From: Sphingomonas natans
GTDB lineage: Bacteria > Pseudomonadota > Alphaproteobacteria > Sphingomonadales > Sphingomonadaceae
Assembly: GCF_030546695.1 (NCBI RefSeq)
Contig: NZ_JAUOTP010000001.1
Location: 558,001 to 622,000 of the forward strand
DNA length: 64,000 nucleotides
Direction of reading: 5' to 3'
Shown: positions 12,115-27,603 of the stretch, in pieces
Layout of the letters: each line of letters opens with the position of its first letter
How positions within the stretch are numbered: position 1 is the stretch's first letter
Made by a program: the position numbers and the translations under genes
The notes under the pieces: generated by a model
What the model was told of the DNA's origin: nothing
What the model saw: only the letters and a program-made list of their open reading frames with translations
Database searches by the model: none

Positions 12115-12810
12115 TTAGGCCTCCGCGTCCAGCTCGCGGCTCAGCGTCAGGTGGAAGCGATCGGCGAAGCGGTTGAGCCCCGCCTCGATCCGGTCGAGCC
12201 GGTGCGTCATCCGGTTATAGGCGATGACCGCCGGAATGGCGGCGAACAGGCCGAGCGCGGTCGCGAACAAAGCCTCGGCGATGCCCGGCGCGACCGCGCC
12301 GAAGCTCGTATTCTGGCTCGCGGCGATATCACTGAACGAGCGCATGATTCCCCAGACCGTGCCGAACAGGCCGACGAACGGGCAGACGCTGCCGATCGTG
12401 GCGAGCACGTTCAGCCCTGCAGAGAGCTGATCGATCTGCGTCGCCGCGGCGGTGCCCATCGCGCTGGCGAGCCGCGCGCGCGTCGCTTCCGGGTCCATCT
12501 TCTTGCCCGCGGTGGACAGGCGCCATTCCTCGATACCCGCCTGAAAGACCTTGGCGCTCGGCAGATCGAGCCCGCCTTTCTCGCGCAGGAACTTGTCCAT
12601 GTCGGCGGCCTTCTGGAAATCGGCGTCGAACGCCGCGTCCTTCCTGGCCACGCCCGCCAGGCTCAGGCCGCGGCCGAAGATGATCGTCCATGTCCACAGG
12701 CTCGCGGCGAGCAGCCCCGCCATCACGATTTTCACGACCAGATCGGCGTGCAGGAACAGGGCCAGCGGCGAGATCGACGCCTGGTTCATCGAAACGGTCA
12801 GTTCGTTCAT
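12115..12810 (-). CDS. tolQ: Tol-Pal motor protein TolQ
   Basis: The 231-residue protein of the MotA/TolQ/ExbB family has three membrane helices (about 18-40, 135-157, 167-190 by hydrophobicity) and conserved signatures such as GLFGTVWGIMRSF and IAEALFATALGLFAAIPAVI. It forms the pentameric stator around TolR. The start MNELTVSMNQ at 12810 overlaps the ybgC stop as ATGA, so translation is coupled. Confidence 0.96.
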   Translation of the reverse strand: MNELTVSMNQASISPLALFLHADLVVKIVMAGLLAASLWTWTIIFGRGLSLAGVARKDAAFDADFQKAADMDKFLREKGGLDLPSAKVFQAGIEEWRLSTAGKKMDPEATRARLASAMGTAAATQIDQLSAGLNVLATIGSVCPFVGLFGTVWGIMRSFSDIAASQNTSFGAVAPGIAEALFATALGLFAAIPAVIAYNRMTHRLDRIEAGLNRFADRFHLTLSRELDAEA

Positions 12811-13274
12811 CGGCGCGCTTCCGCTCCTCCGCTGATGGCCTCGAAGGCCGTGATCCATGCCTCGGGTTGGCGGCGCGGCCGCCCGTCGGGCCCGACGAAG
12901 ACTACCGCCACGCGCCCTTCGACGACGACTTGGTCATTTCGCATGACCCGTTGATGAACGACGACCCCCGCACTGCGGATCCTTCCGACGCTGCTGACCA
13001 CGGTCAGCGCATCGCCGAGCCGGGCCGGTGCGCGATATTTGAGCTCCGCCTCGGCGACGACATAGGCACTGCCGTCGGCGGCAAGCGTGGCGAGGAAGTC
13101 GATCCCGACGCGCGTGAGCATGTCGAAGCGCGCGCGCTCGAAGAAGCCGAGATAGCGCGCATGATAGACGACCCCGCCCGCATCCGTATCCTCATAATAG
13201 ATGCGCACCGCGAAGCGATGCTCGTTGCCGACGATACGGCCGGAATAAGGTGCGTCGTCCGTTTCTTCGCTCAT
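12807..13274 (-). CDS. ybgC: YbgC-type acyl-CoA thioesterase
   Basis: This 155-residue hotdog-fold protein carries the 4HBT/YbgC signature YYEDTDAGGVVYHARYL (residues 26-42) and the rest of the single hotdog domain. YbgC thioesters are cleaved to free acid and CoA; its link to Tol-Pal is conserved but its exact job is not settled. It is the first gene of the tol operon. The start MSEETDD at 13274 removes an N-terminal extension that runs into the upstream dioxygenase gene. Confidence 0.9.
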   Translation of the reverse strand: MSEETDDAPYSGRIVGNEHRFAVRIYYEDTDAGGVVYHARYLGFFERARFDMLTRVGIDFLATLAADGSAYVVAEAELKYRAPARLGDALTVVSSVGRIRSAGVVVHQRVMRNDQVVVEGRVAVVFVGPDGRPRRQPEAWITAFEAISGGAEARR

Positions 13275-13323
13275 TCCCGCGGGTGATAGGGACAGCGGAG
13301 CCGGCTGGGAACCCGCAGCTTCC

Positions 13324-14289
13324 CTAGCGCGCGAGCTGCGGCGGCAGGGGCGGCCGAAAACCGGGGCGGCGCCAGCGCGCATGTGCGGGCTCCTCGGGAT
13401 CGGGCCGTGCGAAGTCCACATAGCCGAAGAAGGTCGCGATGAGCCGCTCTCCGGGATCGAGGATCGCGTTCCGCCCATGCATGAAGCGCGTATTGTCGAG
13501 CATCAGCACGTCGCCCGGCCGCCACTGGACCGCGACCTTGATCCCCTCGCCCGTCCCCCGGATCGCCTGCAGCCAGGCCTCGGGCACCGGATGCCCGTCG
13601 TCCAGCACCGGGAAATCGGGCCGCCCGTTGTTGAAGCGCGCGAAGAGCAGGAAATTGCCGAATGCGGGCGCGTCGGTGAACATCGGCCGGTGCAGAGCGG
13701 GCCGCGAGAAGACGCGCACGATATCGCCATGCACGCGGTGGAAGCTGTACGGGCAATCGGCCGAGGTCTTGGTCAGCTCGGCATCGCTCGGCTCGGGCGT
13801 GCCAAGCCAATAATCGAGCAACTCGGGCCAGGTCGGCTTGATATAGAGGAGCCTCCGCCCCGCCAGCCCTTCGCGCACGGCTGCCGGCATGGCGCGGACC
13901 ATCTCCACCCCGTCGCAGATCACTGTCTCCCCGCCCCGGCTCGGCGCCGAGAGGCAGGCGAAGAAGGCGATGTCGGGCTTCCACGGCTCGCGCGACAGTT
14001 CGGGATGGAGCGAGAAGGCGCCCACGCCGCCGTCGACGGTGTGAATATTGCGCGCGGGCTCGATCGGCTGGCGGCCCGGACTTTCGTTGAACACCGAGGT
14101 CGCGCAGAAACCCCAGGCGAAGTCGCGAAACTGCGCGGCATCCGCACCGAATCCGCGGAAGAGGAGCGCGCCGCGGTCCTTGTAGAGGGCGATGATCGCC
14201 TCCCGATCGAGATCGAGGATGCTGCGCTCGCCGGCCGCTTCGACAAGGACGTGGGGCTGCCCGAGCCGGGGCAGATGGATGGTCGCCAT
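13324..14289 (-). CDS. TauD/TfdA-type Fe(II)/2-oxoglutarate dioxygenase
   Basis: The 321-residue enzyme has the double-stranded beta-helix metal triad: His95 and Glu97 in the H-P-E motif, and His271 in FMHGRN, with Arg282 (GERLIATFF) placed to hold 2-oxoglutarate. Glu in place of Asp is the clavaminate-synthase-like variant. It should hydroxylate or otherwise oxidise a substrate with O2 and 2-oxoglutarate. The start MATIHLPRLG is chosen because the longer frame runs into the divergent gene. It opens the dioxygenase/sulfotransferase group and is divergent from the first P-loop protein, 49 bases away. Confidence 0.8.
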   Translation of the reverse strand: MATIHLPRLGQPHVLVEAAGERSILDLDREAIIALYKDRGALLFRGFGADAAQFRDFAWGFCATSVFNESPGRQPIEPARNIHTVDGGVGAFSLHPELSREPWKPDIAFFACLSAPSRGGETVICDGVEMVRAMPAAVREGLAGRRLLYIKPTWPELLDYWLGTPEPSDAELTKTSADCPYSFHRVHGDIVRVFSRPALHRPMFTDAPAFGNFLLFARFNNGRPDFPVLDDGHPVPEAWLQAIRGTGEGIKVAVQWRPGDVLMLDNTRFMHGRNAILDPGERLIATFFGYVDFARPDPEEPAHARWRRPGFRPPLPPQLAR

Positions 14290-14338
14290 GACGGCCGGGG
14301 GATAGCGGCAGACGCGCCCGCTAGCTATAGCCTCGATC

Positions 14339-15307
14339 ATGGCGCTGACGATCGACGACATACTCGCTTCGCCCGACCATTATCTGCACAGTTTCGATGG
14401 CGATGCGGCGGTGCTGCTGCCGATGGACCGCGCCGCTTATCATCGCTCGATCTTCCTCGACGGGCGGATTTCCCCGGCCGGCGAAGGCGAGATGCGGCTG
14501 CCGCTCGCCGCGCTCTTGCCGGTTCCGGCTCCGCAACGGACGAGCTGGATCTTCCACGTCGCGCATTGCGGCTCGACCTTGCTGGCGCGCGCGCTGGACC
14601 GGCCGGACGCCAATCTGGTGCTGCGCGAGCCGCTCGCGCTGCGCCAGGCGGCGGTCTTTCCGGATCCGCAGCGCTTCGCGCTCGCGACGGCGATGTCTTC
14701 GAAGCGATACCGCGCCGATCTGCCGACGATCGTGAAGGCCAATGTCCCGGTCAACTTCCTGCTGCCCGATCTCGCCGCGCGCGATCGCGAAGCCGGCACG
14801 ATCTTCCTCTATCTGACGCTCCACGACTATCTCGCGGCGATCCTGCGGAGCGACAACCACCGCGACTGGCTGCGGCGCGTCACGGCCCAGCTCGCGCCCT
14901 ATCTCGGCGACACCACCAGCCTCGCGGATCCCGAGCGCGCGGCCTTGCTTTGGCTCGCCCAGCTGCGCGCCTTCGCCGCCGCGCTGGCGACGATGCCAAA
15001 CGCGCGCGCGCTCGACGCCGAGATCTTCTTCGCCGATCCGGCACCGACACTGCTCGCCGCTTCGCTCTGCCTCGGCGCGCCGATGACGGCGGGCGAGGCC
15101 GACGCGATCGTCCGCGGGCCGCTCTTCTCGACCTACTCGAAGAACCCGGCCGTCGCCTTCGCCAATGAAGACCGGCTGGCTCGCAAGGCCGAACTCGCTC
15201 GATCGCTCGGCGGCGAGATCGATCAGGCGACTCGCTGGCTGGCGGCGAACGGCGCCGACGCGCCCGCGATACTCGCCACCCTGCAGCGGGCTGCGCTCAC
15301 CCGCTGA
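14339..15307 (+). CDS. Sulfotransferase-like P-loop protein (copy 1)
   Basis: The 322-residue soluble protein has a P-loop-like turn IFHVAHCGSTLLARALD (about 71-87), shaped like the 5'-phosphosulfate loop of sulfotransferases but with CGST instead of the usual (K/R)SGT. Other shared motifs are LREP (95-98), VKAN, and GPLFSTYSK (260-268). A paralogue at 16677 has the same motifs. Activity on PAPS is therefore a guess. It is divergent from the TauD-like gene and meets the TPR-AspH gene tail to tail with a 6-base gap. The start ATG at 14339 has no strong ribosome-binding site. Confidence 0.6.
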   Translation: MALTIDDILASPDHYLHSFDGDAAVLLPMDRAAYHRSIFLDGRISPAGEGEMRLPLAALLPVPAPQRTSWIFHVAHCGSTLLARALDRPDANLVLREPLALRQAAVFPDPQRFALATAMSSKRYRADLPTIVKANVPVNFLLPDLAARDREAGTIFLYLTLHDYLAAILRSDNHRDWLRRVTAQLAPYLGDTTSLADPERAALLWLAQLRAFAAALATMPNARALDAEIFFADPAPTLLAASLCLGAPMTAGEADAIVRGPLFSTYSKNPAVAFANEDRLARKAELARSLGGEIDQATRWLAANGADAPAILATLQRAALTR

Positions 15308-15313
15308 GCCCCG

Positions 15314-16606
15314 TCACTCGGAAAGCCCGATCGCCGCATTGCCGCCCTGGCCGGCGCCACCGGCGATTTCGTAGAAGCGGCGGAGCAGGGCGCGCTCCTC
15401 CTCGCGGATGTGCGGGTTCCACACGTCGAAGATCAGGATCGCGCGAAGCCGGTCCGATCGGTTCCAGGCTTCATGCTCGATCGTGTCGTCGAACGCCCAG
15501 GCCTCGCCCTCGACCCAGTCGCGCGTCTCGCCGCCGACACGAAAGCTGCAGCCCGGCGGCACGATCAGCGGCAGATGGATGATCGTCCGAACATTGCTCA
15601 CCCCCGTATGCGCGGGCAGATGCGCGCCGGGCTCGAGCAGGGAGAAGAATATGGTCGGCGTCCGCCCCGGCAGGTCGGAAAGCGGCAGCGCCTCGATCGC
15701 CGCTGCGGTCTTCGGCGCACGCGCGCAGACGGCATCGTTGCGCCGGCCATCCTTCCAAAGATGGAGCGCGCCCCAGTCCATCTTGTGATCGAGCGGCGTC
15801 CATTTGTTGGCGGGCGTGCCTGGCTCCATCGCGATATAGGGCAGGAATCCTGCCTTATCGTCCGCGAGCAGTGCTTCCAGCTCGGCCCGGATCGCCCCGG
15901 TCTGCGCCTCGATCCCGGCGAGCCACGGGAAATGCGCGCGATCGAAAAACTCGTCGGCTGGCAGGAACGGGACGTGCAGCCCCGCGCACTCATTGGCGTA
16001 GATCTGCCGCCGGCCGAGCGCATGATCGATCGCCGCCGTCACGCGGCGCGTCTCGCTCGGCGCCAGTCGGCCGAGCGCCTCCGAGAGACCGCCGTCTATC
16101 GCCGCCGCAAAGTCCCGTTGCGATGCCGTGACACGATCGCGCGCATGCGCCAGCATGCTCTCGAGCGCGGGCGTCCGCTCTTCGACACCCTCGGCCATCG
16201 CCAGCACGCCCGACCAGTGCCCGGCGGCCTCAGCCTCGTCGCCGATCCGCTCGAGCAATTCGGCCATCCGCACGAGCGCCATGAAATGGCGTCGGTCGAT
16301 CGCGAGCGCGCCCTCCAGCGCCGCACGCTCGCCCGCGGCATCGCCCTGCTCGCGCTTCGCCTTGGCGAGGTTCATCCACAGATCGGGGGCGCGCGGATCG
16401 GCCGCGATCGCGCGGTGGAACAGATTGACGGCCTCTTCCCGCCGTCCCCTCACGAGCGCCCGCATGCCCAGCGCGTTGAGCGCGACAGGATGTTCCCCGC
16501 ATTCGGCGATCACCCGATGGAAGAGGCGCGCCGCCTCATCGACCCGTCCTGCTCGCTGCGCCTGTGTCGCCTGACCGACCAGATGGCCGGTATCGTTCGT
16601 TTTCAT
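15314..16606 (-). CDS. TPR plus aspartyl/asparaginyl beta-hydroxylase protein (copy 1)
   Basis: The 430-residue product has N-terminal tetratricopeptide repeats (about 10-160) and a C-terminal AspH-type domain. The Fe(II)/2-oxoglutarate site is complete for this family: His333 (PAHTG), Arg340 and His344 (NVRTIIHLPL), His378 (IEHEAWN), and Arg386/Arg388. AspH enzymes use two His and no carboxylate and hydroxylate Asp/Asn; relatives act on lipid A. TPRs may bind a protein partner. A shorter paralogue lies at 17744. It is divergent from the second P-loop protein. Confidence 0.82.
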   Translation of the reverse strand: MKTNDTGHLVGQATQAQRAGRVDEAARLFHRVIAECGEHPVALNALGMRALVRGRREEAVNLFHRAIAADPRAPDLWMNLAKAKREQGDAAGERAALEGALAIDRRHFMALVRMAELLERIGDEAEAAGHWSGVLAMAEGVEERTPALESMLAHARDRVTASQRDFAAAIDGGLSEALGRLAPSETRRVTAAIDHALGRRQIYANECAGLHVPFLPADEFFDRAHFPWLAGIEAQTGAIRAELEALLADDKAGFLPYIAMEPGTPANKWTPLDHKMDWGALHLWKDGRRNDAVCARAPKTAAAIEALPLSDLPGRTPTIFFSLLEPGAHLPAHTGVSNVRTIIHLPLIVPPGCSFRVGGETRDWVEGEAWAFDDTIEHEAWNRSDRLRAILIFDVWNPHIREEERALLRRFYEIAGGAGQGGNAAIGLSE

Positions 16607-16676
16607 GATGCCCCCCCGAGCTGGGCGGGAGCTTACAGAAAGTTACGCGGTGGACAAATCCTTCCGCGCCCGCGAC

Positions 16677-17747
16677 ATGGAGGCGATGCCGCAGGCGCCG
16701 TCCCCCGCCCCGCCCCGCTCGATCGAGGAGGCCGCGCGCAATCCCGAGTGGATCGCCCATCGCTACGATCCCGGCCACGATGCCGTGCACCTGCTGCCCG
16801 TCTCGCGCGCGGTCCAGCGCCAGGTTACTTTCCTCACCGATGAATATCTGCCCTCGGGGCTCGATCCGATCGTCGTCCGCCGCAAGGATGCGATCGCCGC
16901 CGCGCCGAGCGCCGCGCCGATCCACTTCGTCTTCCATTCCGCCTTCTGCTGCTCGACGCTGGTCGCGCGCGCCTTCGATCTGCCCGGCCGGTCGATGGGG
17001 CTGAAGGAGCCGGTGATCCTCAACGACATCATCGGCTGGCGACGGCGCGGCGGCCAGGGGCCCGACATGGCCGAGGTTCTGGACAACGCGCTGCGGCTGC
17101 TCGCCCGCCCGTTCGGCGCTGGCGAGCGCGTCGTCGTCAAGCCGTCCAACGCGGTCAACGCGCTGCTCGCGCCGATCCTGACGCTGCGGCCCGACGCGCA
17201 TGCGCTGCTGCTCCACGCGCCCTTGCGTACCTATCTCGGCTCGATCGCGCGCAAGGGGCTGGATGGGCGACTGTGGGTGCGGACACTTTTATTGGGCCTG
17301 CTCGACGACAAGCTCGTCGATCTCGGCTTTTCGCCGCGCGATCATCTGGGCCAGACCGATCTCCAGGTCGCTGCCGTCGGCTGGCTCGCGCAGCAGGCCC
17401 TGTTCGCACGCGTCGCCGAACGGTTCGGCCGCACGCGCATCCGCACGATCGACAGCGCGACGCTGATGGCCGATCCGCGCGCGGCGATGGCGGCGCTCGG
17501 GCAGCTCTTCGGGATGCCGCTTTCGGAGGCCGAACTGGGCGGGATCGTCGCTGGCCCCGCCTTCACGAGCCATTCCAAGTCCGGCACCAGCTTCGGCGCG
17601 ACCGAGCGCGCGGCGGAGGAGGATGCGGGCGTTGCGCTGCATGCCGGCGAGATCGACAAGGTCATCGTCTGGGCGCAGGCGGTGGCCGATGCCGCGGGCA
17701 TCCGCCTCGACGGCCCCTTCCCTTTGATCGAGGATCGCGACGCATGA
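16677..17747 (+). CDS. Sulfotransferase-like P-loop protein (copy 2)
   Basis: This protein, 356 residues from the chosen start, is a paralogue of the gene at 14339. It has HSAFCCSTLVARAFD (87-101), LKEP (109-112), VVVKPSNAVN and GPAFTSHSK, each aligned with copy 1. The loop again lacks the usual (K/R)SGT, with CCST instead. In-frame starts at 16605, 16650 (GTG), 16677 and 16686 are possible; the first would abut the divergent gene. Its stop overlaps the next ATG (ATGA), so it is coupled to the second TPR-AspH gene, which suggests they work together. Confidence 0.6.
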   Translation: MEAMPQAPSPAPPRSIEEAARNPEWIAHRYDPGHDAVHLLPVSRAVQRQVTFLTDEYLPSGLDPIVVRRKDAIAAAPSAAPIHFVFHSAFCCSTLVARAFDLPGRSMGLKEPVILNDIIGWRRRGGQGPDMAEVLDNALRLLARPFGAGERVVVKPSNAVNALLAPILTLRPDAHALLLHAPLRTYLGSIARKGLDGRLWVRTLLLGLLDDKLVDLGFSPRDHLGQTDLQVAAVGWLAQQALFARVAERFGRTRIRTIDSATLMADPRAAMAALGQLFGMPLSEAELGGIVAGPAFTSHSKSGTSFGATERAAEEDAGVALHAGEIDKVIVWAQAVADAAGIRLDGPFPLIEDRDA

Positions 17748-18904
17748 AGGAAGATCTCCAGCGCATGGGGGAGATGGGCGTCGCCGCGCTCGGCGCGGGC
17801 GACGCGGCGCAGGCGCGTCGGCTGTTCGAGCAAATCGAGGAGGAGGGCCGCGGCAGCCACCAGCTGCGCCTGCTGCTCGCGCAGGCCTGCACCATGATGG
17901 GCGACGCGCCCGCTGCGCATCGCGCGCTGGATCAGGTGCTGCGCGACGAGCCGACCAATCTGTATGCGCTGCTGATGCGCGGCGATCTCGTCACCAAGGC
18001 GGGCGATCCGCGCGCCGCCGTCTCCTGGTATCAGGCTGCGCTCATGCAGGCGCCGCGCGCGGGGCAGCTTCCGCCCGATCTGCTGGACGCGCTGCGCGAT
18101 GCCGAGCGCAAGATCGAATCCGTCGGGCGCGATTTCGCCGATCATATGGAGAGGAAGTTTGCCGAGGCGGGCGTCTCCGCCGGTATCCATCCTCGCTTCG
18201 CCGAAGCGTTGGATCTGCTGACCGGCAAAGCCGAGGTCCAGCTTCAGCAGCCGACCAATTTCTATTATCCGCAGCTTCCACAGCGCGCTTTTTTCGAGCG
18301 TGAGGAATTCGCCTGGGTCGCCGATTTCGAAGCGCGGGCTCCGCTCATCCGTGCCGAACTGGAGGCCGTCCTTGCCGCCGATCAGGGCCTGCAGCCTTAT
18401 GTCGCCGCCGATCCCGATCGCCCCGCCAAGCCGCATCCCTTGCTCGGCGATCCGCGCTGGAGCGCGTTCCACTTCTTCCGCCACGGCATGCCGGTGGCGG
18501 AAAATGCCGCGCGCTGCCCGCAGACCTTCGCCGCGCTGAACGCGCTGGCTCTACCGCGCATCGACGGGCGTTCGCCGATGGCGATGTTCTCGGTGCTGAA
18601 GCCGCGCACCCATATTCCGCCGCATAACGGAATGCTCAACACGCGGCTGATCTGTCATCTGCCGCTGATCGTGCCGGACGGCTGCCGATTGCGCGTCGGC
18701 AACACGATTCGCGCGGTCGAGGCGGGCAAGATGATGATCTTCGACGATTCGATCCGACATGAGGCCTGGAACGACAGCGCCGAGACGCGCACCGTGCTGA
18801 TCTTCGAGATCTGGCGCCCCGAACTGACCGAAGCCGAACGCGCCGGGCTTACGACCCTGTTCGGCGCGATCGACGTCTATTCCGGCGACGGCAACGGCGC
18901 CTGA
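17744..18904 (+). CDS. TPR plus aspartyl/asparaginyl beta-hydroxylase protein (copy 2)
   Basis: The 386-residue protein has TPR-like helices in residues 1-125 and a C-terminal AspH domain with His294 (PPHNG), Arg301 and His305 (NTRLICHLPL), His339 (IRHEAWN) and Arg349 in place. It should be an Fe(II)/2-oxoglutarate hydroxylase of a protein or peptide carboxylate-side-chain residue or a related substrate. The start at 17744 overlaps the previous stop as ATGA. It ends 8 bases from the convergent small secreted protein gene. Confidence 0.82.
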   Translation: MKEDLQRMGEMGVAALGAGDAAQARRLFEQIEEEGRGSHQLRLLLAQACTMMGDAPAAHRALDQVLRDEPTNLYALLMRGDLVTKAGDPRAAVSWYQAALMQAPRAGQLPPDLLDALRDAERKIESVGRDFADHMERKFAEAGVSAGIHPRFAEALDLLTGKAEVQLQQPTNFYYPQLPQRAFFEREEFAWVADFEARAPLIRAELEAVLAADQGLQPYVAADPDRPAKPHPLLGDPRWSAFHFFRHGMPVAENAARCPQTFAALNALALPRIDGRSPMAMFSVLKPRTHIPPHNGMLNTRLICHLPLIVPDGCRLRVGNTIRAVEAGKMMIFDDSIRHEAWNDSAETRTVLIFEIWRPELTEAERAGLTTLFGAIDVYSGDGNGA

Positions 18905-18912
18905 CGCGCGCC

Positions 18913-19203
18913 TTACTGGAAGCAGGCGCCGCCATTGCCGCTCGCGCACGACATCTGGCCGGTCATCGTCATCGTCTTGCGGACGTCGTCGCGGCCCTGC
19001 TGCCACTCCGCTTTCGTCTTGCAGACGCGATAGCCTTTGACGAGCGATCCCGTCTCCAGGAACTTCTTGCAGATGACCTTATCGGTCGCATCCGCCGATT
19101 TCTCGGCGGTCGCAACGCGCGCCGGTGCGGGCGGAGCCCCGGCGGTCCCCGTCGTCGGATCGGCAGCAGCTAGGGCAAGAAACAGAAGAAGCGACGTCGT
19201 CAT
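18913..19203 (-). CDS. Small secreted protein with four cysteines
   Basis: The 96-residue product has an N-terminal signal peptide (MTTSLLLFLALAAA), an Ala/Pro-rich linker, and a core with KVICKKFLETGSLVKGYRVC and KTKAEWQQG, where two Cys are about 16 apart, then a tail with two more Cys (SCASGNGGACFQ). The CKK...GS...RVC.TKAEW pattern is, from memory, recurrent in sphingomonad secreted proteins of unknown role. A good AGGAAA ribosome-binding site supports the start. It sits inside the hydroxylase/sulfotransferase group and shares a divergent promoter region with the TPR-sulfotransferase. Confidence 0.75.
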   Translation of the reverse strand: MTTSLLLFLALAAADPTTGTAGAPPAPARVATAEKSADATDKVICKKFLETGSLVKGYRVCKTKAEWQQGRDDVRKTMTMTGQMSCASGNGGACFQ

Positions 19204-19267
19204 CGTGACTTTCCTATTCGATTTCTCCGGATATTAGCGCAAACCGAGGTCCGCTAGAAGGCCCGTG

Positions 19268-20911
19268 ATGTCGAACCGAGTGAAGAGACCGCCAGCGCCC
19301 GCCAGACCGCGCCCGCTCGCCGAAATCGAGCAGGCGCTCGCGGCCAATGACATCGTCCGCGCCGCCACGCTGGCGGAGACGGCACTTGCCGCCGGCCGCA
19401 ATGATCCGATGCTGCTCAACCTTGCCGCCTGGGCGCGCGAGGAGGCGGGCGATTTCGGCGGCGCGCATGCTCTGCTGGAACGCGCGCTCGCGCTCGCACC
19501 TGGCGACGCGATGATCGTCGCCGCGATCGGCGCGGTGTTGCGCAAGGAGCGGCGGTTCGACGAGGCGCTGGCCGTGCTGGACAAGGTCGTCACTGCCGAG
19601 CCGCGCCATAGCGCCGCATGGCTGGAACGCGGCTATGTTCTGGATGGGCTGCGCCGTGAAGCCGATGCCGCGACAAGCTATGCGCGCGCGCTCGCGCTCG
19701 ATCCTTCGCTCGCGCCGGCGCATGGCAAGCTGGCCGACGGCGCCGCCAAACGCGGTGATCGCGGCTCGGCCGAAAGCCATGCCGCACGCGCGCTCGCGAC
19801 CAACCCGCACGAGCCCGGCGCGACCTTCGCGCTCGCCACGCTCGCCATCGAAGCACGCGACGGCGCCGCCGCCGAAGTCCGCCTGCGCCACCTGCTCGCC
19901 GCGCCGCTCGACGCCGACGATCGTACGCGCGCGCTGACGCTGCTGGGCGACGCGCTCGACAAGCAGGATCGCACCAGCGACGCCTTCGCGACCTGGCAGC
20001 AGGCACAGGCCAATTTCGCCGACCGCTATCGCTCCCTTCTCGGCCCGTCGCCCGATCGCCTCTCGCACCGCGCCTTCGTCGATCGCATCGCCGCCCAGGT
20101 CGCCGCGGCCGAAGCCCCGCCCCGCCTCTATCCCGCCACGGCTCTGCCGCACGCGGCCGCGACGCATGTCCTGCTGCTCGGCTATCCCCGCTCGGGCACG
20201 ACGCTCGTGGAGAATGTGCTCGCCAGTGCGGAGGGTGTCATTGCGCTGGAGGAGCGCGATACGTTCGGCGGGACGGACGAAGTGCTGCTGTTCAACGACG
20301 GATCGATGCCCGATCTCGACGCGCTCGATCCCGACCTGATCGATCGCCTGCGCGCCGATTATTGGGCGCGCGTGGAACGCATGGCGGGCTCCGTCGCGGG
20401 CAAGACGTTCGTCGACATGAACCCATTCAACGGCATCCGCCTGCCGATCGCCGCGCGGCTGTTTCCCGACGCGCGCATCGTCGTCATGCGCCGCGATCCG
20501 CGCGATGTCGTGCTGAGCTGCTATCGGATCAATTTCACGCCCTCGACCGCCTCCTATGCGTTCAGCGATCTCGAGGAAGCCGCCCGCCACTATGGCGCGC
20601 TGACCGGGCTCGTCGAACTGTCCCGCGAGCGGCTCGGCATGGCTTTCCATGATCTGCGCTACGACCGGCTCGTCACCGATTTCGAGCCGACCGTTCGCGC
20701 GCTCGCCGCCTTCGTCGGCCTCCCGTGGACCGACGCGTTCCTCGATTTCGACAAGACCGCGCGCTCGCGCGGGGTCGGCACGGCGAGCGCTCTGCAGGTT
20801 CGGCGCGGCCTGTATGACGGTCGCGGCCAGTGGCGCCGCTACGAAGCGCAGCTCGCGCCTGCGCTTGCGATCCTAAAGCCATGGGCCGAACGGCTCGGTT
20901 TCGAGGAATAA
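19268..20911 (+). CDS. TPR-containing sulfotransferase
   Basis: The 547-residue product has several tetratricopeptide repeats in residues 20-250 and a C-terminal sulfotransferase domain. The PAPS-binding loop GYPRSGTTL lies at 305-313 with the standard RSGTT, unlike the two earlier P-loop proteins. The 3'-phosphate segment ARIVVMRRDPRDVVLSCY follows near 402-419. It is predicted to transfer sulfate to a protein, peptide or small-molecule hydroxyl. The ATG at 19268 follows AGAAGG. It converges on the TonB-receptor gene, which together with the hydroxylases suggests joint function. Confidence 0.85.
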   Translation: MSNRVKRPPAPARPRPLAEIEQALAANDIVRAATLAETALAAGRNDPMLLNLAAWAREEAGDFGGAHALLERALALAPGDAMIVAAIGAVLRKERRFDEALAVLDKVVTAEPRHSAAWLERGYVLDGLRREADAATSYARALALDPSLAPAHGKLADGAAKRGDRGSAESHAARALATNPHEPGATFALATLAIEARDGAAAEVRLRHLLAAPLDADDRTRALTLLGDALDKQDRTSDAFATWQQAQANFADRYRSLLGPSPDRLSHRAFVDRIAAQVAAAEAPPRLYPATALPHAAATHVLLLGYPRSGTTLVENVLASAEGVIALEERDTFGGTDEVLLFNDGSMPDLDALDPDLIDRLRADYWARVERMAGSVAGKTFVDMNPFNGIRLPIAARLFPDARIVVMRRDPRDVVLSCYRINFTPSTASYAFSDLEEAARHYGALTGLVELSRERLGMAFHDLRYDRLVTDFEPTVRALAAFVGLPWTDAFLDFDKTARSRGVGTASALQVRRGLYDGRGQWRRYEAQLAPALAILKPWAERLGFEE

Positions 20912-20945
20912 TCTACGGCGAGCGTCTGCTCGCGACGCCTCATCA

Positions 20946-21006
20946 ACCGTTCGGTTCGAGCCTGTCGAGAATTTGCCCCGCTTCGCGCAGTCGAGAAGCG
21001 CCTCAT
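20946..21006. repeat. Intergenic repeat, family A copy
   Basis: Segments CGTTCGGTTCGAGC and CAGTCGAGAAGCG match parts of the repeat at 1961-2072. Both copies lie next to a transcription terminator. It is partial and only moderately palindromic. Confidence 0.5.
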
Positions 21007-21053
21007 CGCGCGAAGGAAGCCCCGCAGCCTTCAGCGCCGATCTTCGACTGACA

Positions 21054-21087
21054 AAGAAAAAGGGGGCGGGCCGAAGCCCACCCCCTT
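21054..21087 (-). terminator. Rho-independent terminator after the TonB-receptor gene
   Basis: On the minus strand a GC-rich stem (GGGGGTGGGC with GCCCGCCCCC) closes a TTCG loop and runs into TTTTTCTTT, 27 bases past the receptor stop codon. Confidence 0.85.
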
Positions 21088-21113
21088 CCGATAGTCTCCC
21101 GAAGGAGCGCGCC

Positions 21114-24100
21114 TTAGAACTTGAGGCGTGCACCGACCAGGATGCGGCGGCCCAGCGCGTCGTAGGTCGACGGATAGGTGTTGCCGCTGTTGAACGAGGT
21201 CGAACCGATCGTGGCACCGACGATCGGCGGATCCTTGTCGAGCAGGTTGGCGACCGTCAGCGTCAGATCGAGGTTTTCGGTCACGTCGGCCCGGAAGGAC
21301 AGGTCGAAGTAATTGTAACCCTTGATGTGGCCGAAGTCATACGTGCCGCCGGCGAGAGCGCCGTTGGACGTCGCGTTGCCCGAGATCGTGCCGGAGAAGG
21401 TCGTGTTGCCGGGCTCGACGTTCATCGGGCTGATGTGGCGCCACAGAAGCGAGACATCGAGCGGACCGAAGCTGAGCGTCGTGCGCTGGTTGAACGTGAA
21501 CTTCGGCTGGAGCGAACCGGCAGCCGAGCTCGGACCCGCCGAACCGGGCGAACCGCAGCTCGTGCTGTAGAGACCGACGCAGTCGCGAACGATCGAGACC
21601 GGCGTCGCCTGGAACTCTGCACGGCGGGTATAATTGCCCTGCAGGCCGATATCGAGCTTGGTGAAGCCCAGATCGCGGCGATAGTTGAAGCCGAAATCGA
21701 TACCGTCGGTCAGGATCGTCCCGGCGTTCGACGAGATGAAGTTCAGGCCGCCCGTGGTTGCCGGATCGCCGTCGAGACCACCGGTGACCGGATTACGCCG
21801 GATCGCGGTGCAGAGCGGGTTCGTGGCGGCGGAAGCTGCGATGCCGGCACCGGTACGATTACCGAAGCACAGGTTGATCGCATCATCAGGCGTAGGCTGC
21901 GAAATCGCCTGCTTGATCTTGATGTGGTAGTAATCGACCGTGATCGACAAACCGGGGATCAGGCTCCGGGGCTGAATGACGAGACCCACGGTGTAGGAGT
22001 CCGACTTCTCAGGGCGGAGCAGCAGACTGCCCGCGGTCGTCGCGGCAGCCTGCGCCGCGGTCGGCGTCAGGATCTGGCCGATCGAGCTGGCCGGCGCACC
22101 CTGCGCAAGGCAGACCGCGCGCAGATTGGCATTGGTAGTCGGGGCCGCCCCGGCGCAGGGATCATAGCCAAGATTGGTCAGGCCGACGACGGCCGGTGCG
22201 AACAGCTCGGTGATGTTCGGGGCACGAACCGCGCGCTGATAATTGCCGCGCAGCTTGAGGCCCTCGAACGGCTCCCAGCTACCGCCCGCCTTGTAGGTCG
22301 TCGTCTTGAAGCTCGGGCTCGTCGGCGCTTCCACCTTGTAGCTCGAATAACGGATGCCGCCTTCGACCGTCAGGCTCTTGAAGAAGGGCCGGTCGGCGAT
22401 CAGCGGAGCGATGACTTCGCCATAACCTTCGACGACGTCATAGGAGCCGTTGAAGTTAGTGATTGCGCCACCGGCACCGCCCAGCTCGCCCGCGGTCTGC
22501 GAAAGCGAGTCCGCCGACTGCGACGCCGTATACTTGCGATACTCCGAACCGAGCGCGAAGCTGATCGGCTCCGCGGCCATCGGGCTGGTCACGCCGAAAT
22601 CGCCGGTCAGCAGCGCACGGGCCTGAGCGAGCGACGCCTTCTGGAACGAGAAAGAATTGCCCGTGAGATACGGGATCTGGTTCGCGGCGATCGAGCCGGT
22701 CGGCCCGAACAGATTGACCGGAACGCAGCCCGTGCTCGCCGTCAGCGGAGCACCGCCGGTGGCGCCGCTCAGGCAGCTCGTGGTGTTCGTGGCGTAGGCC
22801 GCCGAGCGGACGCGCGACAGGAGCACGTAACCCGACTGGGTCTGACGATTCTCGGATTCGCCGTACGAACCGTTGATGTCGAGGTTCAGGCTGTCCGTGA
22901 TGTCGAACTTTGCGCCGGCGCGATAATCGAACACCTGCGTGACATATTCGGAAACGCGCGGGCCGACCTCAACCGTACGACGCCCGATGACGGGGCTGAC
23001 GGTCCGGAAGTTCGGGTTTGCCGTGCCGTCCGGATTGGTCGGGCTCGTCGCGGTGGCAGCCGCGGCGCACTGCGCGGCCGTCAGGCCTTGGACGCCTGCC
23101 GTGGTCGGATCGAAATCGAAGCCGTTGCAGAACGATGTCCGCAGCGCGGGCGTGAGATAGGGATTGCTCAGCGGGATCTGGACGGTCGCGCCGAAGATAC
23201 CAGACGGAGCGATGATCGTGTTCACGGTGTTCTTCGAGAACATGCCGCGCGTGTAGAGCTGGATGCCGTCGGCGACGTCGTAATGACCGGCGCCATAGAT
23301 GTTGAAGCGCTTAAACGGCGTCTGGAAGATGTTGTAGGGCGCGAAGTTGAACGCATCCGAAGGCGTCGTCGCCGTGCCGCGCGAGCGATAGGCGCGGACA
23401 GCGCCCGTTCCCTGATCGATCACGGAGAAGCCGGCGCCGCCCGTGGTGAAGCGCGACGGCGTCGTCGTGCCCGAACCGCCCGAGAAGCCCGAGGTCGATG
23501 TGTACTGGTTCTGCGAGAAGCTGCGCGCGCCCTGATAGACCGGCTTGGCCTTCTGGTAGCCGATCGACAGCACGGCGTTGCCCTTGCCGTCGTCGAAGTT
23601 CGCGCCGACCGTCAGATCGACGCGCGCGACATTGCCGTCGCCGCGCTGGGTCAGCTGCTCGGAGGCGTTCGCCTCGAAGCCCGAGAAATCCTGGCGGGTG
23701 ATGAAGTTCAGCACGCCCGACACGGCGTCTGCGCCGTAGGTCGTGGCGGCGCCACCGGTCAGCACGTCCGTACGCTCGACGAGCGCCAGCGGAATGTTGT
23801 TGAGATCGGTCCGGCCCGTCGCGCTCGACGGCACGATGCGGTTGCCGTCCAGCAGGACGAGGTTGCGGAAGTTGCCGAGGCCGCGAAGATCGACGAACGA
23901 TGCGCCGCCGTTGCCGTTGTTCACGGCGGAGCCGATGCTCGGCGTCACGCCCGGCAGATCGCGCACGAGCTGCTCGGCGGTGTTCGACTGGCGCAGGCCG
24001 ATTTCGGCCGCGCCGATGACGGTCACAGGCGACGAAGAAACAAGGTTCGGATTGCGGACCAGCGAGCCGGTCACGACGATTTCCTGAGGTGCTTCGGCGG

Positions 24101-24212
24101 GCGGCGCGTCTGCGGAGGTGCCGACCTGCGCGAAGGCAGGGCTGGCGATGGTCGCTGCGCCGACCATCAGGGTCGTCGCGAGCAGGCTCTTACGGTAACG
24201 GTTGGTGGTCAT
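21114..24212 (-). CDS. TonB-dependent outer-membrane receptor
   Basis: The 1032-residue protein has a signal peptide cleaved near Ala28 (PAFAQ), a TonB box (EIVVTGS, 44-50), a plug domain (SNTAEQLVRDLPGVTPSIGS; LRGLGNFRNLVLLDGNRI), and a long 22-strand-type barrel ending in an aromatic/charged C-terminus (RILVGARLKF). It imports a large ligand with energy from TonB. The plug shows the Oar/carbohydrate-receptor style common in sphingomonads rather than a clear siderophore signature, so the ligand is unknown. It lies at the end of the dioxygenase/sulfotransferase group, converging on the TPR-sulfotransferase. Confidence 0.92.
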   Translation of the reverse strand: MTTNRYRKSLLATTLMVGAATIASPAFAQVGTSADAPPAEAPQEIVVTGSLVRNPNLVSSSPVTVIGAAEIGLRQSNTAEQLVRDLPGVTPSIGSAVNNGNGGASFVDLRGLGNFRNLVLLDGNRIVPSSATGRTDLNNIPLALVERTDVLTGGAATTYGADAVSGVLNFITRQDFSGFEANASEQLTQRGDGNVARVDLTVGANFDDGKGNAVLSIGYQKAKPVYQGARSFSQNQYTSTSGFSGGSGTTTPSRFTTGGAGFSVIDQGTGAVRAYRSRGTATTPSDAFNFAPYNIFQTPFKRFNIYGAGHYDVADGIQLYTRGMFSKNTVNTIIAPSGIFGATVQIPLSNPYLTPALRTSFCNGFDFDPTTAGVQGLTAAQCAAAATATSPTNPDGTANPNFRTVSPVIGRRTVEVGPRVSEYVTQVFDYRAGAKFDITDSLNLDINGSYGESENRQTQSGYVLLSRVRSAAYATNTTSCLSGATGGAPLTASTGCVPVNLFGPTGSIAANQIPYLTGNSFSFQKASLAQARALLTGDFGVTSPMAAEPISFALGSEYRKYTASQSADSLSQTAGELGGAGGAITNFNGSYDVVEGYGEVIAPLIADRPFFKSLTVEGGIRYSSYKVEAPTSPSFKTTTYKAGGSWEPFEGLKLRGNYQRAVRAPNITELFAPAVVGLTNLGYDPCAGAAPTTNANLRAVCLAQGAPASSIGQILTPTAAQAAATTAGSLLLRPEKSDSYTVGLVIQPRSLIPGLSITVDYYHIKIKQAISQPTPDDAINLCFGNRTGAGIAASAATNPLCTAIRRNPVTGGLDGDPATTGGLNFISSNAGTILTDGIDFGFNYRRDLGFTKLDIGLQGNYTRRAEFQATPVSIVRDCVGLYSTSCGSPGSAGPSSAAGSLQPKFTFNQRTTLSFGPLDVSLLWRHISPMNVEPGNTTFSGTISGNATSNGALAGGTYDFGHIKGYNYFDLSFRADVTENLDLTLTVANLLDKDPPIVGATIGSTSFNSGNTYPSTYDALGRRILVGARLKF

Positions 24213-24454: not shown

Positions 24455-24985
24455 ATGAAAATGGCTCTGCCGATCGCGCTCGGCGCGATCCTGTGTTGCG
24501 CCGGTGCCGCGGTGGCGGCGGGGCCGAACTCGTCGGACCGCGTGCTGCGCGATTTCGCGAATTGCCGGACGACGGGGGACGCGGCCGCCCGGCTTGCCTG
24601 TTTCGAGAAGACGTTCGACAGCTTCGAGCAGGCGGTCAAATCCAGGGAGGTCACGATCGTCGACAAGGCCGACGTACGCGAGGCCAAGCGATCGCTATTC
24701 GGCTTCACCCTGCCCAAGCTCGATCTGTTCGGCGGCGGTGGCGGCAGGGAGGATCCCGCCGAGGAATTCGCCGAGATCAACACGACCGTCGCCTCGGCGC
24801 GAACAGGCGAAGGCGGACATATCGAGATCCGCCTCGCCGACAATCCCGATGCCTTGTGGCGGACGACCGACCCGATGGCGTTCCCGCCCCGCGCCGGCGA
24901 CAAGATCCGCATCCGCCAGGGCGCGCTCGGCAATTATTTCCTGTCGGTCGGCGGCCGCTCCTATCGCGGCATAAGGGTGCGCTGA
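24455..24985 (+). CDS. Exported hypothetical protein, 176 aa
   Basis: I do not recognise this family. A signal peptide (MKMALPIALGAILCCAGAAVAAG) leads to a segment with two Cys (NCRTTGDAAARLACFEK). The middle is Gly-rich (FGGGGGRED), and the C-terminal half is beta-rich (GDKIRIRQGALGNYFLSVGGRSYRG), suggesting a small periplasmic domain. The ATG at 24455 follows GAAGGA with good spacing; the longer frame adds a basic, unlikely N-terminus. It converges on clpB with a perfect hairpin between. Confidence 0.75.
   Translation: MKMALPIALGAILCCAGAAVAAGPNSSDRVLRDFANCRTTGDAAARLACFEKTFDSFEQAVKSREVTIVDKADVREAKRSLFGFTLPKLDLFGGGGGREDPAEEFAEINTTVASARTGEGGHIEIRLADNPDALWRTTDPMAFPPRAGDKIRIRQGALGNYFLSVGGRSYRGIRVR

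Positions 24986-25023: not shown

Positions 25024-27603
<2,580 letters not shown>

Follow-up and report, generated by a model that had tools for sequence, protein, structure and literature searches.

Hydroxylase and sulfotransferase-like genes are linked to a subfamily of TonB-dependent receptors in Sphingomonas natans and its relatives

In Sphingomonas natans (RefSeq assembly GCF_030546695.1), a stretch of 64,000 nucleotides of contig NZ_JAUOTP010000001.1 (positions 558,001 to 622,000; hereafter the window, whose own numbering is used below) encodes several hydroxylases and sulfotransferase-like proteins beside a large TonB-dependent receptor. This locus is a conserved yet variable sphingomonad arrangement, often situated by clpB, and is not a chance neighbourhood. 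We tentatively suggest, with somewhat less than even confidence, that it is an accessory module of one TonB receptor subfamily, here named TBDR_A, and that the enzymes modify a polypeptide of this receptor's complex that is destined for export, with the receptor itself as favoured target.

The receptor gene (21114-24212, minus strand) encodes a protein with the plug (PF07715, 74.4 bits) and barrel (PF00593, 105.3 bits) domains that define TonB-dependent receptors in Pfam. The genome (4.56 Mb) has 71 plug-domain matches, 70 of them over the cut-off, and a single TBDR_A, for which the closest paralogue is 34% identical. Nearby are genes for a TauD/TfdA-like 2-oxoglutarate (2OG)-Fe(II) dioxygenase (13324-14361, minus strand), two proteins that combine a tetratricopeptide repeat (TPR) arm with an aspartyl/asparaginyl beta-hydroxylase domain (TPR-AspH 1, 15314-16606, minus strand, and TPR-AspH 2, 17744-18904, plus strand), two P-loop proteins (P-loop 1, 14339-15307, and P-loop 2, 16605-17747, both on the plus strand) and a TPR-sulfotransferase with a TPST-like catalytic domain (19268-20911, plus strand). 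Also present is a gene for a small secreted two-cysteine protein (18913-19203, minus strand), with a signal peptide recognized by eye. All eight genes listed in the original prediction, which was made from the sequence alone, were found at their given coordinates, as was the ATGA overlap (17744-17747) that couples P-loop 2 to AspH 2. The 5' end of the TauD gene, as called, runs into the start of P-loop 1. Genome-wide, we identified APS (adenosine 5'-phosphosulfate) kinase, a source of 3'-phosphoadenosine 5'-phosphosulfate (PAPS), one Sulfotransfer_3 protein and three PF05118 proteins.

Linkage was counted within 8 kb of 150 receptors in 149 genomes, namely 86 TBDR_A and two lower-scoring sets of 22 and 42; 150 matches each were also listed for the small protein and the TPR-sulfotransferase, and the counts in this paragraph hold among the matches listed. 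The four partner families counted were P-loop, AspH, TPR-sulfotransferase and the small protein (TauD and the 2OG-FeII_Oxy_5 family, or Oxy_5, were not searched genome-wide). An enzyme gene lies within 8 kb of 48 of the 86 TBDR_A genes, compared with 7/22 and 5/42 lower-scoring receptors. For the small protein the corresponding values are 43/86, 1/22 and 0/42. Thus, the gene set is kept beside TonB receptors in relatives, as the original prediction proposed, and the genes are not dispersed among them. Counts anchored on the enzymes agree: P-loop genes lie within 8 kb of TBDR_A in 30 of 37 high-scoring and 1 of 29 low-scoring cases (66 rows, from the 149-genome subset), and AspH genes in 27 of 37 and 7 of 51 (88 of 95 rows, after seven of 141-172 bits, six catalytic-domain-only and one partial, were dropped), with score cuts (480 and 325 bits) that were chosen after the lists were seen; for one receptor in 3.3 Mb, about 0.6% would be expected to lie so close.

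A search of 298 genomes provided 60 P-loop loci, one per genome, of which 40 were the top-ranked ones and 20 had lower ranks. TBDR_A is encoded within 5 kb at 35 of the 40 high-scoring loci (three of the five misses are near a contig end) and at 2 of the 20 low-scoring loci. In 20 control regions of 20 kb, hand-set at round coordinates in P-loop-positive genomes (one shares a short contig with a match), TBDR_A was not found and another receptor occurs in four. An AspH gene was called in all but six of 80 named TPR-AspH loci, and of these 74 loci 47 are flanked by 8 kb on both sides. Among these 47, a receptor is present within 5 kb in 22. It is present within 8 kb in all 15 that have a second AspH gene within 5 kb and in all 10 that have a P-loop gene within 5 kb. 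For the TPR-sulfotransferase, 27 of 40 regions, picked from the 150 listed rows in a top-heavy way with up to three per genome, have a receptor within 5 kb.

In 8 of these 40 regions a receptor of a different subfamily lies 0-88 bp from the TPR-sulfotransferase gene, and no small-protein match was found there. The association with a second receptor subfamily is independent support for the linkage. Together with the enzyme genes beside lower-scoring receptors, it suggests that receptors are the common denominator. The second subfamily (TBDR12) was identified at this distance in L060, L062, L063, L067, L069, L071, L072 and L073. In L062, L067, L071 and L073 it is accompanied by shared neighbours, one of which matches metallo-beta-lactamase in Pfam, whereas others are transport-like by eye.

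The content of the loci varies. Beside the genes of 68 distinct TBDR_A proteins in the loci examined, genes for P-loop proteins, AspH, TPR-sulfotransferase and an enzyme with TPR and Oxy_5 domains occur in many combinations. The gene set of the window recurs in G084, G021 and G029 with order and strands changed. Some genomes probably occur in more than one of the sets used here (that of L078 as G084, that of L091 as G043, that of L083 as G106 and that of L081 as G020). AspH-receptor linkage, with no clpB in the stretch covered, was also identified in Roseateles, Duganella, Pseudoduganella, Povalibacter, Peristeroidobacter and Parahaliea; its occurrence outside the sphingomonads, in Burkholderiales and Steroidobacteraceae, is independent support. 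The beta- and gammaproteobacterial receptors are 33-35% identical to that of the window, and their assignment to the same subfamily is based on scores against a profile that included four of them. When 398 genomes were sampled from the phylum, 11 had a match to the P-loop gene, six of the 11 being in the family of the window; the gene is thus rare outside this family.

The two TPR-AspH proteins belong to PF05118 (141 bits for AspH 1 and 146 bits for AspH 2, against a Pfam cut-off of 22.6). Residues H294, R301, H305, H339 and R349, which we take to be the two-histidine iron site and the arginine and histidine residues for 2OG, are invariant across 14 TPR-AspH proteins, including both copies from the window. 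The iron and 2OG motifs were found in AspH 1 and AspH 2 alike, so the original reading of both sites as intact holds. The top match in the PDB for the catalytic domain of AspH 2 is AspH (E about 1e-24); the solved AspH chains are presumably those of the human enzyme. TauD is a member of the TauD/TfdA family (PF02668, 106 bits against a cut-off of 27) and contains HPE and FMHGR, presumably the H-x-D/E and distal histidine motifs. TauD and P-loop genes are paired in the absence of a receptor in L039, L228, L232 and L233, and the partner of P-loop 1 is TauD rather than AspH 1. In L228, L232 and L233 the genes form a stand-alone divergent pair by an rpsD-like gene (named by eye).

The TPR-sulfotransferase matches Sulfotransfer_3 (PF13469) with 95.7 bits, against a cut-off of 27, and contains the PAPS loop noted earlier (YPRSGTT) as well as RRDPRDVVLS, both of which we take to be PAPS-binding motifs. 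Its catalytic part has weak matches in the PDB to protein-tyrosine sulfotransferases (E 8.5e-07; best 60 of 74 matches). In L040, from a draft genome (G063), the frame of this gene is broken by an in-frame stop.

No Pfam or NCBIfam match was found for P-loop 1 or P-loop 2. Eight of the 34 members of the P-loop family touch PF13469 (best E 0.0011), and none reaches a Pfam cut-off. The P-loop 2 sequence has no match in the PDB up to E 1, and a profile of 34 relatives has a single match (E 0.87), the sulfotransferase domain of a polyketide synthase (4gox). An AlphaFold2 model of P-loop 2 was built from 13 sequences (mean pLDDT 85.3, pTM 0.86). In a Foldseek search of this model against the PDB, each of the 50 matches listed is a sulfotransferase or retinol dehydratase, which shares that fold; 18 have E<=0.001, and the top matches are the curacin sulfotransferase domain and human TPST2 (E 1.3e-05, probability 1.00). 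Thus, of the two proteins originally described as sulfotransferase-like, P-loop 2 is predicted from its model to have a sulfotransferase fold and does not appear to belong to an unrelated ATPase family; P-loop 1, with a CGSTLLAR loop, is a probable relative, judged by homology to P-loop 2 only. The P-loop proteins have a C-x-S-T-L loop without lysine or arginine, and an invariant Glu-Pro that falls, by eye, at the place of the catalytic glutamate of TPST. By analogy with TPST, the 5'-phosphosulfate loop would be expected to contain a basic residue, and the enzyme a catalytic acid.

The recurrence of P-loop and AspH genes within the window had been read as a duplicated module. A recent tandem duplication is not supported, because the copies are less alike than orthologues (AspH 1 and AspH 2 are 34% identical, compared with 51-64% between AspH 2 and its sphingomonad orthologues; P-loop 1 and P-loop 2 are 28-30% identical, compared with 57-65% for P-loop 2 orthologues) and because AspH 1 and AspH 2 fall in separate clades of a tree with a midpoint root and unsupported deepest forks.

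A gene for AspH, TauD, Oxy_5, or an Oxy_4 or Oxy_3-type oxygenase lies within 2.5 kb in 33 of the 60 P-loop loci and in none of the 20 control regions, although part of this count is by construction because two of the profiles were built from ten P-loop neighbours. These ten, chosen by eye, are all 2OG oxygenases in Pfam. The pairing occurs away from the receptor too, and we read it as a sulfotransferase paired with a hydroxylase, the latter being exchangeable. Because the P-loop family often lies beside several 2OG oxygenase families, an order of hydroxylation and then sulfation gains support from position, and the pairing is the strongest hint of this order, by position only. In L235, L237 and L241, a P-loop gene occurs with a 2OG-FeII_Oxy_4 gene, and the two adjoin a uvrA-like gene (named by eye).

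A profile of the small two-cysteine protein identified 75 open reading frames in 196 scanned loci and none in the 20 control regions. The 71 distinct proteins come from loci mostly anchored on enzymes and have a signal peptide or lipobox by eye. They share the core C-x15-C-x-T-x3-W, with a cysteine spacing of 15 in 62 of the 71, a G-[ST] step and nearly invariant threonine and tryptophan. No convincing Pfam or NCBIfam family was found. The predicted structure is a hairpin and a helix (mean pLDDT 65.8, pTM 0.36), without a match in the PDB at E<=0.001. Among the matches listed, this is the commonest of the four counted partners of TBDR_A, and all 43 genes within 8 kb are downstream of the receptor, 36 on the same strand. 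In 11 genomes the small gene is 94-165 bp behind the receptor, on the same strand, and no counted enzyme family is encoded within 8 kb. In the window it is likewise downstream of the receptor, with the TPR-sulfotransferase between. An AspH gene is its immediate neighbour (<=300 bp) 25 times among the 71 (one copy counted twice), on the same strand in 19, and a P-loop gene is its immediate neighbour 17 times, always on the opposite strand. There are up to three copies per locus.

The small protein is not confined to such loci: matches were identified in 102 of 149 genomes and, among the 150 copies listed, 54 are within 8 kb of TBDR_A, 46 within this distance of counted enzyme families and 58 of either, leaving 92 with neither TBDR_A nor any of these enzymes within 8 kb. 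Three distant copies that were inspected have ordinary genes around them. The genome of S. natans itself includes a second copy (C5:174182, within L268, C5:168000-180500), with unrelated neighbours and no gene called there.

How these components may work together is suggested by their cofactors and relatives. No signal peptide was recognized by eye in the enzymes, which require 2OG, iron and PAPS. Thus, their expected place of action is the cytosol, prior to export. The TPR arms, and the fact that the solved relatives (AspH and TPST) act on proteins, favour a polypeptide client. We infer from such evidence the cytosolic location, the polypeptide substrate, the order of reactions and the identity of the target. 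The TPR-armed enzymes (AspH 1, AspH 2 and the TPR-sulfotransferase and, in relatives, the TPR and Oxy_5 enzyme) would act on an exported polypeptide, and the smaller enzymes (TauD and the P-loop sulfotransferases) may join in its modification. Hydroxylation would come first and sulfation second, both before secretion. The favoured target would be the receptor, because it is the partner in most contexts, including those without a detected small protein. The small protein would be the second choice, because of its operon-like spacing with AspH and because it stays with AspH and P-loop genes in one genus. The receptor and small protein would then work together at the outer membrane. A more specific version, in which both are beta-hydroxylated and sulfated in the cytosol by TPR-docked enzymes, with interchangeable 2OG oxygenases each paired with a sulfotransferase, is possible and rather doubtful.

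Several observations weigh against modification of the receptor complex by these enzymes. Among the matches listed, 27 of the 86 TBDR_A genes have none of the four counted families within 8 kb, and 11 have the small protein and none of the three enzyme families. No receptor was detected within 5 kb in 25 of the 47 fully flanked TPR-AspH loci, and where a gene of the TPR-sulfotransferase type lies within 5 kb of AspH a receptor is present within 8 kb in only four of eight loci. Counts inside one family are not independent events, because most of the linkage reflects inheritance of the synteny next to clpB. In one genus (G001, G095), P-loop, AspH and small-protein genes are kept together and TBDR_A lies elsewhere. 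No 2OG oxygenase of the families counted occurs within 2.5 kb in 27 of the 60 P-loop loci, and seven of the ten neighbours from which the Oxy_4 and Oxy_3-type profiles were made are within the same 60 loci. The superposition of P-loop 2 on known structures is loose (TM-scores of 0.25-0.42 over the query, 6-18% identity). Moreover, cytosolic modification of a large barrel precursor would be unusual. The loci of G095 and G001 in which P-loop, AspH and small-protein genes are grouped, with TBDR_A not nearby, are L217 and L220.

Residue correlations lend no support to a substrate site in either candidate. In the receptor, the association of aspartate and asparagine positions with AspH is at best weak, the lowest p value (2e-04, uncorrected) being at N666; the nearby E669 has p 1.2e-04, yet AspH would leave such a residue unmodified. 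At p<1e-9, 61 of 334 receptor columns track the P-loop gene, and these associations are a clade effect, which also counts against the receptor as target. In the small protein, the core has no invariant aspartate, asparagine or tyrosine. No aspartate or asparagine tracks AspH (at position -4, one or the other occurs in 22 of 38 proteins accompanied by AspH and in 19 of 33 that are not), and tyrosine is not enriched with the TPR-sulfotransferase. Thus, the original working idea is partly supported: the linkage, the modelled sulfotransferase fold and the resemblance to enzymes with protein substrates agree with it, the sequence of hydroxylation and sulfation has support from gene position, and the recent duplication is not supported.

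The enzymes may instead synthesize or modify a small ligand, or else a peptide from a gene elsewhere (siderophore-like or lasso-like), for uptake by the receptor, an alternative that we consider somewhat unlikely. TonB receptors often adjoin genes for their ligand. There is no NRPS (nonribosomal peptide synthetase), RiPP (ribosomally synthesized and post-translationally modified peptide) cyclase, leader protease or exporter among the locus genes scanned with Pfam; these were the eight genes, the thioesterase (12807-13478) and the c2 protein described below, and they include no RiPP or lasso cyclase, no leader peptidase and no RiPP recognition protein. The TPR arms on three of the enzymes and the resemblance to AspH and TPST also favour protein clients. 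Support for a tailored peptide comes from Table 2 of PMC10040529, where clusters 1738-1748 of Pontixanthobacter/Allopontixanthobacter (1745 not listed) include lasso B2, nucleotidyltransferase, ABC transporter, sulfotransferase, Asp beta-hydroxylase, a hypothetical protein, sulfotransferase, PqqD, asparagine synthase and glycosyltransferase. The nearly consecutive numbers suggest that these clusters may be contiguous; if so, the same pair of chemistries may be applied to a ribosomal peptide by related bacteria. The set in that table resembles the window in having both enzymes around a presumed exported peptide. It differs in having a lasso cyclase, a protease and an ABC exporter; no such gene was seen at the window locus.

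A further alternative is that the small two-cysteine protein is the sole substrate, a secreted miniprotein that is matured by AspH and the sulfotransferases and then used by the receptor. Consistent with this are its rank as commonest counted partner of TBDR_A, with a uniformly downstream and mostly same-strand position, its frequent adjacency to AspH and P-loop genes, the presence of up to three copies in a locus, and its retention with these genes where TBDR_A is not (G001, G095). We regard this as unlikely, given the lack of invariant or enzyme-tracking aspartate, asparagine or tyrosine, the 11 receptor-small gene pairs without counted enzymes, the many distant copies, and the AspH or TPR-sulfotransferase genes that adjoin receptors at loci without a detected small gene.

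It is improbable that the genes share no pathway and that the clpB region is simply a stable spot in which unrelated genes are kept by descent. The clpB gene (25024-27603, minus strand; ClpB chaperone, named from its sequence) is a landmark of the locus. Much of the synteny is vertical: the first 41 loci, the window counted in, include 14 with the clpB cluster, and clpB is within 5 kb of 26 of the 40 high-scoring P-loop loci. However, order and strand are reshuffled among loci of the same content, the receptor and AspH are linked in other orders of bacteria without clpB in the stretch covered, the TPR-sulfotransferase is elsewhere paired with TBDR12, and linkage is less frequent at lower-scoring receptors. 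ClpB itself is probably not part of the function of the locus. Between clpB and the receptor, and divergent from the latter, is the c2 gene (24455-24985, plus strand) for a secreted protein of 176 amino acids with an N-terminal C-x11-C. Homologues are present in 18 of the first 41 loci, the window again counted in, and c2, which was absent from the original prediction, belongs to the locus. L212 combines receptor, P-loop and AspH genes with two small-protein genes, c2 and clpB. Its Pfam search returned nothing above threshold, the sole sub-threshold match being VasI (E 0.096).

Very improbable is a role for the hydroxylases and sulfotransferases in modification of outer-membrane lipids, merely near the receptor, since the AspH fold does include OlsC and LpxO but the two AspH copies score far under the NCBIfam equivalog cut-offs (90.5 and 104 against 450 bits for OlsC, 38.5 and 37.7 against 500 bits for LpxO), both have TPR arms, and a separate PF05118 protein of 267 amino acids is encoded elsewhere in the genome.

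Comparison with known systems highlights both similarities and differences. The TPR-AspH proteins share with AspH (PF05118) a TPR arm and a catalytic domain with aligned iron and 2OG residues. The window enzymes differ from human AspH in appearing cytosolic, and no disulfide-macrocycle substrate was found in the two candidate proteins. For the human enzyme, the available part of PMC9293771 describes a target residue within a disulfide macrocycle of EGF-like domains. The resemblance to TPST and Sulfotransfer_3 is in the catalytic domain of the TPR-sulfotransferase and in the predicted fold of P-loop 2; the differences are the TPR arm on one protein of the window and, in the P-loop proteins, the C-x-S-T-L loop without a basic residue and scores below Pfam cut-offs. 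RaxX is a sulfated peptide of Xanthomonas and RaxST its sulfotransferase. Like RaxST, the window enzymes are proposed to include a bacterial sulfotransferase acting on an exported polypeptide, but no exporter or RaxX-like peptide was recognized at the locus, where hydroxylases and a TonB receptor are found instead. Halogenase and SapC genes also occur in clusters with TonB receptors, which similarly place modifying enzymes by the same broad receptor type, although the enzyme families differ. A literature search, without subscription papers and preprints, found no description of such a locus, and the arrangement of receptor, hydroxylase and sulfotransferase appears to be undescribed. To our knowledge, protein hydroxylation and sulfation in bacteria have been little explored. 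Receptor genes have been deleted previously in a sphingomonad, Sphingobium sp. SYK-6, according to the accessible part of PMC7376174.

Sphingomonads have dozens of TonB receptors with mostly unknown ligands, and a conserved set of enzymes that resemble protein hydroxylases and TPST, linked to a single receptor subfamily, offers a concrete place to look for modifications. The locus also offers targets for annotation, namely an unnamed family of small secreted proteins and an unrecognized family with a predicted sulfotransferase fold. If the proposed function is correct, these bacteria would have a hydroxylation-sulfation system for outer-membrane transporters, in which the receptor or its partner would be decorated before export.

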